NCBI GenBank assembly: GCA_013151865.1
Contig: JAADHN010000170.1
Span: 1 to 32,636 of the forward strand
From: Kiritimatiellota bacterium
GTDB lineage: Bacteria > Verrucomicrobiota > Lentisphaeria > Oligosphaerales > JAADHN01
DNA length: 32,636 nucleotides
Reading direction: 5' to 3'
Below are positions 17,456-31,596 of the stretch, one piece after another. The notes under the pieces are model-generated. The model made no database searches and was not told the origin of the DNA. It saw only the letters and a list, made by a program, of their open reading frames with translations. Position numbers and translations under genes: made by a program. The number at the start of each line of letters is the position of its first letter. The stretch's first letter is position 1.

Positions 17456-17754
17456 GGTTTTCTCCAGCGACTCCGGCTCAGCCGGGGGGAAACGCTTTTC
17501 CGACAACTGATCGGTCTTGAGGGGCAAACGGGCGAGACGGCCGCCTTCAAGCGCGTTGTTCTGCCCAGACGCCATGCCCGGGGGGGCCCTCGCCACGCCT
17601 GACCGGTTGCTTTTTCAGGACGGAGCGGAATGCAACTTCGACGGTCCGACAGTACTTTACCATGCGAAGCCGCTCGGTGCAGGCGCGCCCCCTCGCAACG
17701 TCGCAACGCGCGCGGCTCGGTCGGGCGTCGGTTTGCCAAAAGGGAAGAACCGCC
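17456..17754. other. Divergent intergenic region, 299 bp
   Basis: This separates the first gene of the minus-strand glycan island from the plus-strand nucleotidyltransferase gene, so promoters for both should be here. I see the two ribosome sites at its edges (GGAG on minus near 17463; AGGGAAG on plus near 17741-17747). I found no pair of -35/-10 boxes good enough to annotate and no palindromic operator. Confidence 0.5.
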
Positions 17755-19143
17755 ATGAGTAGAAGCGATGTCGCCGTCGCCGTGCTTGCCGCCGGACGCG
17801 GCAGTCGGATTTGGCCCTATGCCACCGTCCGGCAGAAATGTGCGATGCCGGTGGCCAATCGCCCGCTGATCGCCCGAATCGTTGACGAACTCGCCGCGTG
17901 CGGGCTCCGCAATATCCGCGTGGTGGTCGGGCACTGTGCCGGATCGGTCCGGGCGGCACTCACGGACCTTCGGGACACTGTGACGTACGTCGAGCAGTCC
18001 GTCCCTTCGGGAACGGCTGATGCGGCCCTGTGCGCGCTGTATGACCAGACCGCGGAGATCCTGCTGATCGTGTACGGGGACGTATTGGTGACTCGGCGCG
18101 ACCTCGCCGCAGTACTCGATCCGGTCGAGGCGGGCGATGCCGAAGCGTCCGTCCTGGTCGCTCCCTTGGGCCGGGAACGCCCGGGAGACTGGATATCAGC
18201 CCGGGTGGAAGACGGGGCCCTGACAGGCGTCGAGGGACATTCCGGCGATGGGGCATGGCGGATCGGCGGGGTTTTCGCCATTCGCCGCGTCCATTTGCAC
18301 TATCTTGAAGACAATCCCGGCGTCATGACGTCGGTCCCGGTGGGCGGTATGCCGCCCGCCGAGGCGGAATTGGCCGAATCGATCAGCCGGATGATCGGGG
18401 ATGGGGTTGCCGTGGCCGCCGCAAAGGCCGGGCCGACATTCGTGGATTTGGACAAGCCCTGGCATATTCTGGGGGCTTCACGGCAAGCGATCGCGCTGGC
18501 GTTCGAATCAGTGGCGGAAGACGTCGTCCCGTCGACCTGCCGGATTCACGACGGCGCCGAGATCAACGGTCGCCTGATCTTGGGCGAGAACGTGGTCATT
18601 GGCAACCGAGTGGTCGTCAAAGACGGCTTGATTGCCGCCGCCGCCGCCCGCATCACCAACGGCGCGATCTTGGGGGCGGGTGCGGTCGTGGGCCGCGAAG
18701 CCGCCGTGCGCGACTATTGCGCCCTGAGCGAGTGCGCGGTGGTCGGCGACCACGGGATCGTCGCCCACGGTGCGGAGTTCGCGGGCGTCATGTTTGACCG
18801 TGCTTACTTGTATCATTACTGTGAAATCTCCGGCGTGCTCGGCAGTGCAGTGGATATCGGCGCCGCCACGGTGTGCGGCACTCTGCGGTTCGACGACGGC
18901 GTCACGCCGCACCGAATCAAAGGACGGCGGGAGTGCCCGCCTTACGGGGCCAATGCATCCTATCTCGGAGATTACACGCGGACCGGCGTCAATGCCATGC
19001 TGATGCCCGGCGTTAAAGTGGGGTGTTACTCGTGCGTCGGTCCAGGGGTGGTTCTATACGACGACTTGGCGGAACGCAAAGTGGTGCTGGTGCGTCAGGA
19101 ACTGGAATTCCGCGACTGGGGCCCGGAGAAATATGGCTGGTGA
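17755..19143 (+). CDS. GlmU-like sugar-1-phosphate nucleotidyltransferase with left-handed beta-helix domain
   Basis: A 462-residue cytosolic protein starting at ATG 17755 after AGGGAAG. The N-terminal half is a nucleotidyltransferase. LAAGRGSRIWP (11-21) with a downstream Lys (Lys28 in RQKCAMPVANRPLI) is the signature for NTP and sugar-phosphate binding, and YGDVLV (about 103-108) supplies the metal-binding Asp. From about residue 255 the sequence has hexapeptide-like repeats (ILGENVVIGNRVVVKDG, ILGAGAVVGREAAVRDY, TGVNAMLMPGVKVGCYSCVG) that build a left-handed beta-helix, as in GlmU and archaeal bifunctional nucleotidyl/acetyltransferases. It should activate a sugar-1-phosphate, perhaps an amino sugar, with UTP or dTTP, and may acetylate it. 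Whether it is the housekeeping GlmU is not clear, because the signature has Ser where GlmU has Thr and no glm genes are adjacent. It is convergent with an aminotransferase gene, 460 bp away. Confidence 0.85.
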   Translation: MSRSDVAVAVLAAGRGSRIWPYATVRQKCAMPVANRPLIARIVDELAACGLRNIRVVVGHCAGSVRAALTDLRDTVTYVEQSVPSGTADAALCALYDQTAEILLIVYGDVLVTRRDLAAVLDPVEAGDAEASVLVAPLGRERPGDWISARVEDGALTGVEGHSGDGAWRIGGVFAIRRVHLHYLEDNPGVMTSVPVGGMPPAEAELAESISRMIGDGVAVAAAKAGPTFVDLDKPWHILGASRQAIALAFESVAEDVVPSTCRIHDGAEINGRLILGENVVIGNRVVVKDGLIAAAAARITNGAILGAGAVVGREAAVRDYCALSECAVVGDHGIVAHGAEFAGVMFDRAYLYHYCEISGVLGSAVDIGAATVCGTLRFDDGVTPHRIKGRRECPPYGANASYLGDYTRTGVNAMLMPGVKVGCYSCVGPGVVLYDDLAERKVVLVRQELEFRDWGPEKYGW

Positions 19144-19603: not shown

Positions 19604-20857
19604 TCATTCCTCCAGACGCCGCAAAGCGTCGCGGTTCCGATACAGCTTGCGAAAAGCGCCTGCGATTGCATCGAGTACAGGCGGCGGTTGGAGGAGCCAC
19701 TGGTGGGGGATACCGATGGAGCGGGTCGAGAGGTCCTCGGCAATGGCGCAGCACTCGCCCATCTTGTCCGCGCCGGTCGGGACCATGCGCCAGTTTTCGG
19801 GAGCGACGTTCCAGAGCGGATGTCGATACACCGTGCCGTACAGTGGCCCCGTGGGGAGGCCTTCCGCGGCAAGGGCTCGGATGATCGCGGCCTGGGAAGC
19901 CCCTGCCAATTCCTCGGGCTGAAAAGTGACGACCAGCCTGTAATAGGCCTGGGGGTCGGCGCGGCGTCCGGGGCTTTGGACGCGAACGCCGGGGATTTCT
20001 TCCAGGCCGGCCCGGAGGTATTCCGCGGCCACGGCCCGCCGGGCCGTGTTTCGGCGGAGCGTGCGCATTTGTCCCAGCAGGATCACGGCCTGGAATTCCG
20101 TGGCCCGGTAGTTGCGACAGACGAAGCCAGGCGGCGAGTAGCGTTGTCCCGGTTCAAGGCGGGGGCGGGGGCCGGGCGGATAACCGATGTGCTTGTAACG
20201 ATAGAGGCGGGAGGCCAACTCCTCGTCGTCGGTAATCACCGCACCGCCTTCGCCGCAGGCCAGGGGTTTGCTCTCCTGGAAGCTGAATGACCCAATCCGC
20301 CCCAGGGTTCCTGCACCGTTCCCGGCCCAGGCCCCACCGTGGGCGTGGGCGCAATCCTCGATGATGGACAGGTTGCGTCGAGTCGCAACGCCCTGCAGGG
20401 CGTCCAGGTCTGCCATGGCCCCATAGAGATGTACCGGGATGATGGCCCGGGTTTGGGGAGTGATTGCGGCTTCGACCTGGACCGGGTCCATACATAACGT
20501 TTCCGGATCCACATCCACGAAGACCGGTTTGGCCCCGACGTAGACCACGGCGGCCGCAGTGGCAACCCAGGTGATGGCCGGCACGATCACTTCGTCTCCG
20601 CGCCCGATGCCGAGGACATAGAGGGCGGCTTCGAGAGTCACGGTCCCGTTCATCATGAAAACGCAGTGTTTCGCGCCCTGAAAAGCTGCGAACTTCGCAC
20701 AGAACAGCTTTTCTTGCGGGCCGTTGAACGACCAGTACTGCTGCCGGTAGAGTCGCAACAGCTCGCGCTCGGTGCTCCGATAGCGAGGCGGCCATTGAAC
20801 GGGCTTGACCTTCCCAAGTGCGGGTGCCCCCCCCAGAGCGGCAAGTACTTCTGCCAT
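19604..20857 (-). CDS. DegT/DnrJ/EryC1/StrS family PLP aminotransferase
   Basis: A 417-residue cytosolic enzyme starting at ATG 20857 with AAGGA nine bases upstream; 78 further in-frame codons upstream lack family features. It has the full set of sugar-aminotransferase landmarks: NGTVTLEAAL (70-79), DEVIVPAITWVATAAAV (88-104), FVDVDPETLCMDP (113-125), VHLYGAMADLDAL (142-154) and IEDCAHAHGG (166-175). The PLP lysine is Lys197 in FSFQESKPLACGEGG (191-205). The family transfers an amino group, usually from glutamate, to a keto sugar-nucleotide or keto-cyclitol. No dehydratase or dehydrogenase that would make the keto substrate is in the window. The related gene at 25251-26513 is a second, clearly diverged copy. 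It lies 243 bp downstream of the MurC-like gene on the same strand and may share its transcript. Confidence 0.93.
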   Translation of the reverse strand: MAEVLAALGGAPALGKVKPVQWPPRYRSTERELLRLYRQQYWSFNGPQEKLFCAKFAAFQGAKHCVFMMNGTVTLEAALYVLGIGRGDEVIVPAITWVATAAAVVYVGAKPVFVDVDPETLCMDPVQVEAAITPQTRAIIPVHLYGAMADLDALQGVATRRNLSIIEDCAHAHGGAWAGNGAGTLGRIGSFSFQESKPLACGEGGAVITDDEELASRLYRYKHIGYPPGPRPRLEPGQRYSPPGFVCRNYRATEFQAVILLGQMRTLRRNTARRAVAAEYLRAGLEEIPGVRVQSPGRRADPQAYYRLVVTFQPEELAGASQAAIIRALAAEGLPTGPLYGTVYRHPLWNVAPENWRMVPTGADKMGECCAIAEDLSTRSIGIPHQWLLQPPPVLDAIAGAFRKLYRNRDALRRLEE

Positions 20858-21100
20858 GATACATGTCCTTTTTGTAATCCGATCCGGCGCGTCCATCCCG
20901 ATTTTTGCCGTGTGCTTCGGGTGCGCGATTTTCTGGGTGGATGGTTGATGGCGGAAAGGTGCGAACTCGTATTTCGGACGTCGGAATACTCTCGATCTTG
21001 GCGGTATTTCATCGCGCATGATGGCGGGAAATGCAATTCGAACACTTTCCTTTGCCGGTTTCCCGTTCTCATCGGAACCTGCACCGTCCACCCGGCGACG

Positions 21101-22555
21101 TCAAGTCGTCCCGGGGCTGGCCGGTCGCGCTGCAACGAACGTGCGTGCCCAGTCGGGCAGGGACGGATCGCGAGCCCCCATGATCAACACCGCGCCCCGG
21201 GGGGAGCGTTCGGAGCGAATCAGTTCGCCGGCCGTTTTGCGATCCGGGACGGCCGATACGGGTGCGCCGCGAGCGGCCGCATCGGCCGCGACCTCGTCTG
21301 CGGTAGGCGAAAAAGAAGCGGTCCCGCCTGCATAATAAACCGGCAGAAAAACAAAAACGTCCCGGGAACGAAGGGTCGTGGCGAGCATTCGGACCAGGGC
21401 CTCGCGCATGAATCCAAGCGGACCGAAGCCGTGGGGCTGGAATACTGCCAGCAGGCGGTCCGGCGCCAGTTCCCGGGCGGTTTCGAGCGCGCAGCGGATT
21501 TTCTCGACATTGTGGGCGTAATCTACGATAACGGGCGTCCCCTTGGGGGTAACACCCACCTTCTCGAAACGGCGACGGACGCCGCGGAAAGCTGCCAATG
21601 CCGTTCGAACGGTTTCCCGGTCCAGGTTGTGTCCCAGCGCCGCGTTGAGGATTGCGAACACCGCACAGGCGTTTTCGGCGGAGTGACGCCCGAACTGTCG
21701 GGCGGCGAAGTCGCCGAACCCGGGGAGAGCGAATGTCACGCCCGTCGACGTGGTCCGGCACCGTACCGGTCCGGGCAGGTGGTGCACCCCCACGGTTTGT
21801 CCCGTCCGCCCCCCGAAATACAAGGTCCGCTGGTGGGGTTTGCCGGGGTTGATCGAACCGGCGAGATCAGCGTGCAGCACAACCTTTCCAGTGGTGTTGC
21901 AGGCGAATCGGGAAAAGAGTGCTGCGAGTCGGTCGCGACTGTGATGGTCGGTGCCCATATTGAGGACCACGCCGATGTCGGGATGAAAGGCGACGAGACT
22001 GCCGTCGCTTTCGTCTGTTTCGTACACGATCCACTCCGGAGCGGGATCTGCAGCGAAGTTTCCGGGACCAAGTTCGGTTTCGAACTCGATGACATAACCG
22101 CCGGTCAGCATTAATACGGACCGACCCAGGAGCTTGAGGGCGGATGCGGTCCAGGCGGTTACCGAGGTCTTTCCGGCGGAACCGGCTATTGCGATCTGTT
22201 TGCCCGGGAGACGGTCGAGCACCGAGGCAAGCGCGGCAGCCCGACCGAATACCGGGATGTCGCCGGCGGCAGCCAGGTCCGGATTGCCGGGCTCGATGGC
22301 CGCGGAGCACACCATGGCCCGCGGGCGAGCTGCGGCGACGACCGTGCCGTCCTGTTCGCCCACTATGATCCCCCGGGCGCGCAAACACCGGTACAGATGG
22401 TCCCGCCCCGGGCCGCTCAATTCCCGATCGCTGCCGGTGACGGCATACCCGACGGCGCACAGCAGTTGCGCCAGGCCGCTCATGCCGATCCCACCGATTC
22501 CCACCAAATGAATCGGCCCGGGCGGCGCTGGAAATACCGGCGGGACGTGTGCCAT
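21101..22555 (-). CDS. MurC-like Mur ligase family protein, atypical motifs
   Basis: A 484-residue cytosolic ATP-dependent ligase. The start at ATG 22555 begins right before the family N-terminus; GGAG lies 12 bases upstream, a somewhat long spacing. The N-terminal domain reads IHLVGIGGIGMSGLAQLL (15-32) and VCSAAIEPGNPDLAAA (82-97), closest to MurC, which binds UDP-MurNAc. The P-loop is GSAGKTS (125-131) instead of MurC's GTHGKTT. The middle domain has YETDESDGS (178-186) and NMGTDHHSRD (199-208), as in MurC but with the insert after DH shortened. The C-terminal domain has VDYAHNVEKI (344-353), more like MurE/FolC than MurC's DDYGHHPTE, and FQPHGFGPLGFM (372-383) where MurC has FQPHRFTRT. 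It is therefore a Mur ligase that probably joins an amino acid or peptide to a UDP-sugar-like acceptor. Cell-wall murC is possible but these changes favour a paralogue. Confidence 0.85.
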   Translation of the reverse strand: MAHVPPVFPAPPGPIHLVGIGGIGMSGLAQLLCAVGYAVTGSDRELSGPGRDHLYRCLRARGIIVGEQDGTVVAAARPRAMVCSAAIEPGNPDLAAAGDIPVFGRAAALASVLDRLPGKQIAIAGSAGKTSVTAWTASALKLLGRSVLMLTGGYVIEFETELGPGNFAADPAPEWIVYETDESDGSLVAFHPDIGVVLNMGTDHHSRDRLAALFSRFACNTTGKVVLHADLAGSINPGKPHQRTLYFGGRTGQTVGVHHLPGPVRCRTTSTGVTFALPGFGDFAARQFGRHSAENACAVFAILNAALGHNLDRETVRTALAAFRGVRRRFEKVGVTPKGTPVIVDYAHNVEKIRCALETARELAPDRLLAVFQPHGFGPLGFMREALVRMLATTLRSRDVFVFLPVYYAGGTASFSPTADEVAADAAARGAPVSAVPDRKTAGELIRSERSPRGAVLIMGARDPSLPDWARTFVAARPASPGTT

Positions 22556-23331
22556 GTTGCGCTGATTCTCCAAACACGTGACATCGGGACCGATGTCGCT
22601 TCTCCGCAGCGGCAGGCCCCGTCGGTTCCGCCAAGATCTGGCGGATTCTCGGCCACGCCCGGCCCCGGACGAAGGCCGAACGGCCCCAGGCATGTCGTCG
22701 CGTGCCGGGGAAACGACGGGCGGTCCCGGAATTGTCGGCGTCCCGGCCTGAATACTGCATGAGCCATCTGCTGCGATGCGCCTCTCCCACGATTCCAAAA
22801 GATTGCCGCCGTTCACCGACCGAGACGGTGTTTCAACACGGCCGCGGCCGGCGTTCGACGCAATGACTTGAATCCGTATAAGCAGCGCCCTCTCGCCACG
22901 AAGTTCATGAATTCATCAGGTCAGAGATCCGGATTGAGGGCAAAAGTACCGCGGGCGGCGGCAATTTCCATTCGAATACCGGCAACTCCGGAGCGCTGCG
23001 GCCAGGCGGCGGCACTCCCGTTCGCGGAGGACGGCGCGTCCGAGTCGCGGGGCGGTGCGGCGGGAGGCCGGTTCCGGGGAACGCGGCCCGGGCAGGACAG
23101 TGCACTTGGAGGCCGGCGTCTCGGCCGTTTGCCCCGCGAGATTGACCGGCTGCGCGTCCGACCGCCTGCGTGTTGAAAGTGGCGGGACAGCGTGGTATTC
23201 TGCCAAACACTCCACAGTCCATGTCGGTGCGTTTTGGCCCGGGGCGAGAGGGCAGCGGTCGGGAGGGGCGCCCGGGCCATGAATCGAGCTTCTTCATTGT
23301 CGTCGGTGTTCATTGCAGGGAGAACGGACTC
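22556..23331. other. Divergent intergenic region, 776 bp, largest gap in the window
   Basis: This lies between the minus-strand MurC-like gene and the plus-strand isomerase-like gene. All open frames through it translate into Arg/Pro/Gly-rich sequence without any domain, signal peptide or transmembrane segment. The right part holds a good promoter candidate (23173-23201). A small palindrome atgaattcat is at 22907-22916. No tRNA-like or riboswitch-like fold was recognised by eye. Confidence 0.5.
23173..23201 (+). promoter_or_regulatory. Candidate sigma70 promoter for isomerase-like gene
   Basis: TTGAAA (23173-23178) and TATTCT (23196-23201) are separated by exactly 17 bases. Each matches five of six consensus positions. 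Transcription would start near 23208 and give a leader of about 125 bases before ATG 23332. The same TTGAAA box is seen in the other candidate at 30384. Confidence 0.5.
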
Positions 23332-29296: not shown

Positions 29297-30109
29297 TCAG
29301 GGGTTTTTCATGATTTCGGAGCGCGGCGGCAGCCGGAGGCGCATGCCCGGCGCCAGCCGGTCGCTGCCGTGGAGTACGGCCGAATTGGCGTCGCGGAGCT
29401 TTCCCCAGTAGCGCGACGTCCCGTAGTATTTGCGGGAAATGCGGCTCAACGTGTCCCCTTCCCGAACCACGTACACCCGAACCTCGGACGCCGGGACCGT
29501 GCTCGCCGCCGAGGGCGAAGTCGGGCCGGGAGGCTTCGGCGCGGTGCGTTGCCGTCGGGGCGTGGGGGCCGCAGTTGCGGACGTCAGCATACGGAGTTCG
29601 CCGCGCAACGCCAAGACCTCGGTGTTCAGTTCTTTAATCCGTTGAGCCAGGCGCTTTTCGCGTTCGGTGATGCGGGCCGCGGACTCCGGTCCGCCGCCGG
29701 GGCGTTGTTCCGGGACGACACCCGGGTGTTGTGCGGCGAGTTCGCGGAGCAGATTCACTTCGGCCCGAGATCGCCACTGCCGGACCAAAGCGGCGTTATC
29801 GGCCTTCGGACGTTTGGTGAGGTAAGCCCGATAATGCAGTACGGCCCGCAGGGGATCGTCGAGATGGTCTTCATACAGGGTGGCAAGCTGGAGGTCCGCC
29901 CCGGCCGAGGCCGGACTCAGCCGGAGACATTTCTCGAGGGCCTCGGCCGCCTCGGCATATCGGTCCTGTTTTCGTAACTGGAGGCCGCGTACATAGTACG
30001 GGTTTCGTTCGTCCACCAGGGCGCGGGAGCGGTTGCAGGCAGGAAGCAACGTGGCGCACGCTGGCAGCATAACCCATAATAGGTTGCTTCTCGTACGTCG
30101 TCGGCGCAT
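29297..30109 (-). CDS. Lipoprotein with TPR, coiled coil and C-terminal LysM domain
   Basis: A 270-residue protein starting at ATG 30109 with AGGA upstream. The N-terminus is Arg-rich and then has two LPAC boxes (Cys18 and Cys25); Cys25, after LLPAC, is the likely lipidated residue. Residues about 37-100 form TPR-like helices (YYVRGLQLRKQDRYAEAAEA, GADLQLATLYEDHLDDP). Residues about 145-172 are a coiled coil (ITEREKRLAQRIKELNTEVL). A Pro/Thr/Ala linker follows. The LysM domain spans about 211-261 (RVYVVREGDTLSRISRKYYG, then WGKLRDANSAVLHGSDRLAP), which binds N-acetylglucosamine-containing glycans such as peptidoglycan. It is probably an envelope protein anchoring something to the wall. It is divergent from the DctP gene. 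Confidence 0.87.
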   Translation of the reverse strand: MRRRRTRSNLLWVMLPACATLLPACNRSRALVDERNPYYVRGLQLRKQDRYAEAAEALEKCLRLSPASAGADLQLATLYEDHLDDPLRAVLHYRAYLTKRPKADNAALVRQWRSRAEVNLLRELAAQHPGVVPEQRPGGGPESAARITEREKRLAQRIKELNTEVLALRGELRMLTSATAAPTPRRQRTAPKPPGPTSPSAASTVPASEVRVYVVREGDTLSRISRKYYGTSRYWGKLRDANSAVLHGSDRLAPGMRLRLPPRSEIMKNP

Positions 30110-30540
30110 ATCGGATCCTTTCCGAACCAAATGAAGGCCAAACCGGCGACCCGGTCGGTCCCGGACGCCGGGGGGCGATCCGCTCCCCGCTCGACCCGTG
30201 AAAGCACGGGGCCGCGGTTGACACGACGAGCGGAACGACCGTGCTGCCGAGCCCGCGACTGGGGAAGCGCGGAATACAGGGACGAGGGCGGCGCCCGAAC
30301 ACGGGAAGGCACGACCGGTCCCAACCAGGACCGCGCAACGGACCTTGCCGTCCACGGGCGGACAATGTCCGCTCGGCACAGGTTTGAAAATACTGGCCGG
30401 AAAGATAGAATGCCAATTATGGAACGCCGGAAGTGCGATCGACGATTGCCATGGAGAACGCTTTGCCGGACCGAATGCGGCAAACGGTCGCCGTGGAGAA
30501 GCGGATGGCAAGCAGGGGTCGAGAATCGCTGGAGGAGCCG
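30110..30540. other. Divergent intergenic region, 431 bp
   Basis: This lies between the LysM lipoprotein gene (minus) and the DctP gene (plus). The right third carries the promoter candidate at 30384-30411. The rest has only Arg-rich open frames without family features. An in-frame upstream ATG at 30433 exists for the DctP gene, but it would place charged residues before the export signal and is not used. Confidence 0.5.
30384..30411 (+). promoter_or_regulatory. Candidate sigma70 promoter for DctP-like gene
   Basis: TTGAAA (30384-30389) and TAGAAT (30406-30411) are 16 bases apart, each one base off consensus. The start would be near 30418, leaving a leader of about 120 bases before ATG 30541. 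Confidence 0.5.
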
Positions 30541-31596
30541 ATGCGACTGTTTTGGAACACGCGGGCGTCTTGGGCTGCGGCCGTCTTGGCGGCATGCGGG
30601 GTGCTGTTGTGGACCGGGTGCGGCGGCGGAGCGGGTCCGACCGTGATCCGACTCAGCCACATCACCAGTCCGGGCTCGACGTGGGACAAGGGTGCGCACA
30701 AGTTCGCAGAGCTGCTCGAGGAGCGCAGTCGCGGACGGTTCCAGGTGCGGGTTTACGCCGGGGCCCAACTGGCCCAGCACAATCAGAAGACCGAGCTGCA
30801 GCAGCTGTGCAGCGGGGCGATCGAAATGACCCTGCATTCGCCGATCATTCTGGCCTTGTTCCTCGACCCCCGATTCGATGCGTTCAGCCTGCCGTGGCTG
30901 TTTCCGGACCACGCAGTTGCCAATGCCGTGTGCGACGGTCCCTTCGGCAAACGGGCGTTGGGGTGGCTGGAAGAAAACGGGATCCACGGAATCGCCTTCG
31001 GAGTCAATGGGTTTCGGCAGTTGACCAATTCCGTTCGGGCGGTAACCCGCCCCGAGGACTTGAAAGGGATGAAAGTGCGCGTGGCCGGCACCGACCTGTT
31101 TCGGGCCGTGTTCGCCGCGTTCGGCGCCAACCCGACCACCATGAACTTCGGCGAAGTATTCACCGCGCTCGAGCAGGGGACGATCAGCGCCCAGGAAAAC
31201 CCGTTGTCCATCATCTATTCGAGCAAGTTCTACGAAGTGCAAACGTACTGCACCATTTGGAACTATGCGTACGATCCCTTGATCTTGACCTACAACAAAA
31301 CGCTTTGGGAGAAGCTCTCTCCCGAAGATCGGGCGCTCATCACTCGATGCGGCAAGGATGCGATGGACTACGAGCGCGACTTGGTTCAAAGGGAAGACCG
31401 GGAACTGATCGAGACCCTCCGGAAAAAAGGTATGGATGTGCAGGTCCTCGATGCACCCCGGAAACAACTATTCCGGGAGAGGTGCGCCGGGGTCTATCGA
31501 CAGTTTGCCCCGCGCATTGGCCCGGCCATCGTCCAGGCGATTCAGGCGGCCGTCGAGACGGCCCGGCAATCCGGCGCCGGGTCGGGACCGGACTGA
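30541..31596 (+). CDS. TRAP transporter solute-binding lipoprotein (DctP family)
   Basis: A 351-residue exported protein starting at ATG 30541 with GGAGGA just upstream. The signal segment contains two cysteines (VLAACGVLLWTGCGGG); either could be lipidated, and a lipoprotein is likely. The mature protein starts TVIRLSHITSPGSTWDKGAH, as in DctP proteins, followed by GRFQVRVYAGAQLAQHNQKT. The ligand-binding core has GMKVRVAGTDLFRAVFAAFG, whose Arg normally holds the substrate carboxylate, then NFGEVFTALEQGTISAQENP, the usual helix-strand hinge. LILTYNKTLWEKLSPEDRAL matches the late family block. It should capture an organic acid, perhaps a sugar acid or uronate, in the periplasm. No DctQ or DctM membrane subunit is next to it; the following gene encodes a prepilin peptidase. 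Confidence 0.92.
   Translation: MRLFWNTRASWAAAVLAACGVLLWTGCGGGAGPTVIRLSHITSPGSTWDKGAHKFAELLEERSRGRFQVRVYAGAQLAQHNQKTELQQLCSGAIEMTLHSPIILALFLDPRFDAFSLPWLFPDHAVANAVCDGPFGKRALGWLEENGIHGIAFGVNGFRQLTNSVRAVTRPEDLKGMKVRVAGTDLFRAVFAAFGANPTTMNFGEVFTALEQGTISAQENPLSIIYSSKFYEVQTYCTIWNYAYDPLILTYNKTLWEKLSPEDRALITRCGKDAMDYERDLVQREDRELIETLRKKGMDVQVLDAPRKQLFRERCAGVYRQFAPRIGPAIVQAIQAAVETARQSGAGSGPD

Follow-up and report, generated by a model that had tools for sequence, protein, structure and literature searches.

A MurC-related ligase family of Lentisphaeria with an altered acceptor site, probably acting as an Mpl-type murein peptide ligase

The window analyzed here is a stretch of 32,636 nucleotides, contig JAADHN010000170.1 of a bacterium recorded as Kiritimatiellota and placed by GTDB in the Lentisphaeria. 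It carries an intact open reading frame on the minus strand, with its ATG at 22555 and its stop at 21101, which was assigned to a MurC-like ligase by means of the reading frame, an AlphaFold2 model, and a fold match in the PDB. The gene, its main motifs, and its neighbor are the following.

22568..22571, minus strand: GGAG, a likely ribosome-binding site, 12 bases 5' of the ligase ATG (from reading the sequence)
21101..22555, minus strand: coding sequence of the MurC-like ligase, 484 amino acids
22217..22516, minus strand: N-terminal UDP-binding domain, residues 14 to 113, with the glycine loop, GSD, S84, and R105
22166..22183, minus strand: P-loop GSAGKT, residues 125 to 130
21509..21523, minus strand: DYAHN, residues 345 to 349, followed by the invariant K352
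21419..21439, minus strand: QPHGFGP, residues 373 to 379, where G and P replace the arginines (R377 and R380 in Haemophilus influenzae numbering) that hold the alanine carboxylate in MurC
21167..21178, minus strand: GARD, residues 460 to 463, with the new invariant R462
19604..20905, minus strand: DegT/DnrJ/EryC1 aminotransferase adjoining the ligase, outside the conserved system

A scan for promoters and terminators gave nothing above shuffled sequence.

The window ligase is a complete Mur ligase with the MurC fold. Mur_ligase, Mur_ligase_M, and Mur_ligase_C were found in this order, each above its Pfam gathering score, and the AlphaFold2 model was confident (pLDDT 93.0, pTM 0.93). Its closest PDB folds were those of MurC (TM about 0.80), including a MurC complex with UDP-MurNAc-Ala (UMA) and ANP; the Mpl structure 3hn7 gave a TM of 0.66. 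The best NCBIfam score was obtained with the MurC model TIGR01082, at 217.5 bits against an equivalog cut-off of 335.1. The models of Mpl (TIGR01081; 60.1 bits, equivalog cut-off 388.7), MurE (59.3 bits, cut-off 257.3), MurF (36 bits, cut-off 288.6), and FolC (25.5 bits, cut-off 163) all scored lower. Current profile models misfile this enzyme.

The first-pass annotation had allowed that the protein could simply be the MurC of its lineage, should it be the only one in the genome and group with the true MurC of related bacteria. A second, canonical murC was found at G000:C157 of the same genome, in the form of a MurC-Ddl fusion of 1115 amino acids with the motifs GSHGKTT, EDYAHHPTEL, and FQPHRF and a TIGR01082 score of 306 bits over two pieces. 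Because of this canonical copy, the window ligase is not the lineage's MurC; it is a paralogue of MurC that looks functional and whose acceptor site is altered. At L008:5377-8724, canonical MurC is fused to Ddl with about 170 residues between the two parts, which may be a MurB remnant. The window's genome also encodes MurD, MurE, MurF, FolC, MurA, and MurG. The ligase resembles MurE in its DYAH and MurF in its GSxGKTS, and the canonical forms of both, like that of FolC, are encoded in the same genome. A replacement of MurE was rejected for this genome, whose MurE scores 447 bits, and for most relatives, since they too have a MurE above the cut-off.

Some match to the ligase was obtained in 59 of the 60 related genomes searched, part of these being canonical MurC; orthologues score far above such matches when full length, or occur as fragments at contig ends. 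The ligase clade is present in most of the Lentisphaeria genomes searched. A scan of a genome collection gave 62 loci, nearly all from Lentisphaerota and some labeled Kiritimatiellota or Verrucomicrobia, and as far as seen, the family is restricted to Lentisphaeria and a few records under those two labels. One match from Pelagibacteraceae (L100) was rejected as an ordinary MurC. In our trees, the family formed a single clade with support of 100/100, apart from the MurC proteins of Lentisphaeria, other MurC, and Mpl, and so the window protein does not group with the MurC of related bacteria. Free trees placed proteobacterial Mpl away from the family with weak support. An approximately unbiased (AU) test did not reject a joint clade of the family and Mpl (p-AU 0.785), so that an origin of the family separate from that of Mpl is no longer claimed; the constrained tree even outscored the quick free tree. 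We found no description of this family in the open-access literature.

We compared the active sites of 48 family members with those of 19 Lentisphaeria MurC. The residues believed to bind L-Ala in H. influenzae MurC are Tyr346, His348, His376, Arg377, and Arg380 (PMC3060825). At the MurC positions R377, H349, and E352, all 48 members carry G, N, and K, respectively, and 47 of the 48 carry P at R380, while R, H, E, and R are kept at R377, H349, E352, and R380 in all 19 MurC. Y346 (as Y or F), H348, and H376 of the L-Ala site are still present in the family. Similarly, a C-terminal glycine of MurC and Mpl is R462 in 48 of 48 members. The P-loop reads GS[CA]GK[TS] or GT[CS]GKS where MurC and Mpl have GTHGKT, and the D-YxHHPTE of MurC at the Y346 site is DYAHN plus K352 in the window ligase. 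The changes are not due to chance, since those at R377, H349, E352, and R380 are invariant or nearly so over 48 members and the MurC residues there are kept in 19 of 19 MurC. The changes listed by the first-pass annotation (GSAGKTS, here residues 125 to 131; DYAHN; FQPHGFGPLGF, residues 372 to 382; and a short stretch after DH, with a 5-residue gap compared to the MDTYQ of E. coli MurC) are all present, and its view of a MurC-like protein with changed amino acid contacts is in good agreement with the H. influenzae L-Ala site.

Residues on the other side of the reaction are preserved. P-loop K129, E179, D181-D184, R105, and H348 are invariant in the family; the UDP/MurNAc side (glycine loop, GSD, S84, A86, R105, and E179-D184) is MurC-like and nearly invariant, and the EADESD acid cluster of MurC is kept. 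The ligase thus shares with MurC (TIGR01082; 1p3d, 2f00) the three-domain fold, the catalytic lysine, and the Mg-binding and most UDP-MurNAc residues, and differs from it at R377, R380, H349, E352, and the P-loop histidine and by its separate clade. Judged from the alignment, the donor side of the family is still MurC-like and the acceptor side is rebuilt. The loss of the site for the carboxylate of free alanine suggests that the acceptor is a peptide: R377 and R380 would be dispensable because the first carboxylate of a peptide acceptor sits in an amide and is not free. The new K352 and R462 may help to hold this peptide. The change of the P-loop histidine to C, A, or S is left unexplained by such a role. 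It could be argued that the enzyme is of MurC type and acts on a free amino acid, given that MurC is its nearest match in overall fold and in the first two domains (N-terminal and central) and that the MurC profile scores best. We regard this as unlikely, as both carboxylate arginines are gone across the family.

The first-pass annotation had further proposed that the ligase aminoacylates another UDP-sugar or a uronate, giving an uncommon envelope building block. Here, the recognition of an altered acceptor stood, and the proposed donor did not. The adjoining sugar aminotransferase that it had pointed out is real, and at 17662-19143 the window also encodes a bifunctional enzyme of archaeal GlmU type (sugar-1-phosphate nucleotidylyltransferase/acetyltransferase), with a score below cut-off. 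In addition, the residue by which E. coli MurC contacts uracil, H71, corresponds to D69 in the window ligase and to Asp or Asn in nearly all family members, which would fit another nucleotide sugar. The MurNAc and Mg-side residues are nevertheless kept, which speaks against action on another UDP-sugar. Moreover, DegT genes occur in only 2 of 73 longer ligase loci, at least 4.9 kb away; because this neighbor is not conserved, the aminotransferase was rejected as a sugar-pathway partner. As the conserved context of the ligase is peptidoglycan, we consider action on another UDP-sugar highly improbable.

Indeed, the conserved neighbors of the ligase are division and wall-peptide genes. Within the window, no mur, fts, or ddl gene lies nearby, as noted in the first pass. 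In nine loci of relatives (L043, L050, L051, L065, L070, L080, L086, L098, and L126/L210), ftsI is directly upstream of the ligase, with rsmH and mraZ also present at several of them; this place after ftsI is that of murE in E. coli. In the genomes G049, G053, and G058 of family f12, which are close relatives of one another, a double Opp-type ATPase is directly upstream, and the two reading frames overlap or lie at most about 10 bases apart. The gene order in G053 is oppA-oppB-oppC-oppDF-ligase-Peptidase_S66. The transporter parts share 37 to 49% identity with OppA-D of E. coli, and RefSeq labels the E. coli permease and ATPase subunits as a murein tripeptide/oligopeptide transporter. The sole NCBIfam match of the LdcA-like Peptidase_S66 is muramoyltetrapeptide carboxypeptidase, with 208.8 bits (cut-off 378). 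This link to peptide import and trimming comes from relatives (the Opp ATPase in three f12 genomes, the LdcA-like enzyme in one), and the window ligase itself does not adjoin recycling genes in its own genome. An enzyme for free amino acids would leave the Opp and LdcA neighbors unexplained. Other genes around the ligase include a TPR-LysM protein about 7 kb away in the window (29297-30595, minus strand), with TPR lipoproteins of similar appearance close to the ligase at the loci L205 and L209, and, in G013, the diaminopimelate epimerase DapF (L209:12697-13632) at a distance of about 4 kb.

Together, these data lead us to propose that the ligase, as a member of a family related to MurC, is probably a murein peptide ligase of the Mpl type, joining a tripeptide to UDP-MurNAc. 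Mpl (TIGR01081; E. coli mpl; Psychrobacter arcticus 3hn7) is a Mur ligase that joins peptide to UDP-MurNAc, and we infer the same activity and substrates for the ligase. R377, the arginine of the MurC alanine site, is missing in both, being S in Mpl and G in the ligase, and together with Opp and LdcA the ligase would make up the recycling route known from E. coli. We do not claim membership in Mpl, since both the Mpl model and the Mpl motifs failed; the likeness is one of context and logic. The Mpl motifs EPRSN, SNGG, SGP, and FAHH and the GTFM glycine loop are missing from the ligase, which has the family's own motifs QPHG[FY]xP, DYAHNxxK, and GARD instead and in which R105 and S84 are as in MurC. 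Furthermore, a profile search of the 60 relatives gave no Mpl above the cut-off.

In the proposed route, an Opp-like importer would bring in peptide released from the wall, and an LdcA-like enzyme would trim it to the tripeptide. The ligase would then activate the lactyl carboxylate of UDP-MurNAc with ATP for attack by the amino end of the peptide, as in established Mur ligase chemistry, and the resulting UDP-MurNAc-tripeptide would pass to MurF. A single peptide ligase could in this way bypass MurC, MurD, and MurE together. UDP-MurNAc would come from MurA and MurB or, where MurA is missing, perhaps by way of an NTP_transferase-APH fusion described below.

The distribution of these enzymes in a sister genus of the same order (g23: G024, G025, G036, G037, and G041) and in G026 bears on this proposal. 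Profile searches gave no canonical MurC and no MurD in the five g23 genomes or in G026. MurA is absent from g23, where the only matches, of about 50 to 70 bits, were taken for AroA, and is kept in G026. MurE is absent from these genomes or reduced to a form that has lost the N-terminal domain and carries another residue in place of the P-loop lysine. All six are drafts, 85 to 93% complete, and MurC, MurD, and canonical MurE are missing from every one of them. They keep the ligase along with MurF and MurG, as well as at least four matches to penicillin-binding proteins (transpeptidases), and Ddl is above the cut-off in all but G037 (four of the five g23 genomes). Conversely, no ligase orthologue was seen in f3 (G002, G010, and G016), G005, or G012, most of which have MurC. 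The ligase and MurC are thus doubly dissociated. Joint loss of MurC, MurD, and MurE with retention of the ligase is not explained by an enzyme for free amino acids. It could fit a stem-building ligase that works with MurF and the divergent MraY on a modified wall polymer, where it would add a nonstandard residue or begin a shortened stem: the ligase is kept with MurF, MurG, penicillin-binding proteins, and a divergent MraY where MurA, MurC, and MurD are missing, and its place in the dcw cluster is murE-like. However, most carriers of the ligase also have MurC and MurE, the operon with Opp and LdcA points to imported peptide, and the absence of the ligase from several relatives makes it dispensable. 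We therefore give this explanation very little weight.

If the ligase is a murein peptide ligase, it could be the sole entry to the wall stem in g23, with MurNAc and stem peptide obtained from outside or by recycling and a cross-linked wall built from salvaged parts, an extension that we put forward only tentatively. An organism with penicillin-binding proteins and MurF but without MurA, MurC, and MurD should need supplied muropeptides, which makes g23 a sharp test case. MurNAc auxotrophy has a precedent in Tannerella forsythia (PMC5790795), and g23 would, if this holds, extend auxotrophy of that type to the peptide itself. As side observations, g23 and G026 may be muropeptide scavengers, and an OppD-like ATPase follows murF in G036 and G037. 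The MurE-like proteins L154, L156, and L160 (G036, G026, and G037) have about 400 amino acids, no UDP-binding domain, a preserved DNPR motif, and the P-loop GTKGTTTTT, in which the lysine is lost. L164 (G041:C153) and L168 (G036:C10) are second MurF-like proteins of about 500 amino acids, below the MurF cut-off, with the P-loop GSIGKTTTK.

Most of what is known about the direct reuse of wall peptide concerns Mpl. If this family does the job of Mpl, peptide reuse has been overlooked across an entire class, the enzyme responsible being scored as no more than a weak MurC. According to a Caulobacter study of 2026 (PMC13046382), homologues of Mpl and LdcA are missing from many species, in which the peptide may be broken down instead.

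An NTP_transferase-APH fusion with MurU-like and AmgK-like parts occurs throughout the order (L247-L257; L250, at G000:C55, in the window's genome) and is a possible source of UDP-MurNAc. The copy in the window's genome scores 95 bits for MurU and 60 bits for AmgK, both below cut-off, and fares slightly better on the mannose-1-phosphate guanylyltransferase model than on MurU, which weakens MurU as proof of MurNAc salvage. MraY also differs in this order. It exceeds the NCBIfam cut-off in none of the same-order genomes, most of which have a divergent MraY-like protein of about 75 to 100 bits (in the window's genome, G000:C71:4457-5578, L200, with the motif NATNCSDGVDGLAG), and canonical MraY is present in nearly all genomes of the class outside the order.
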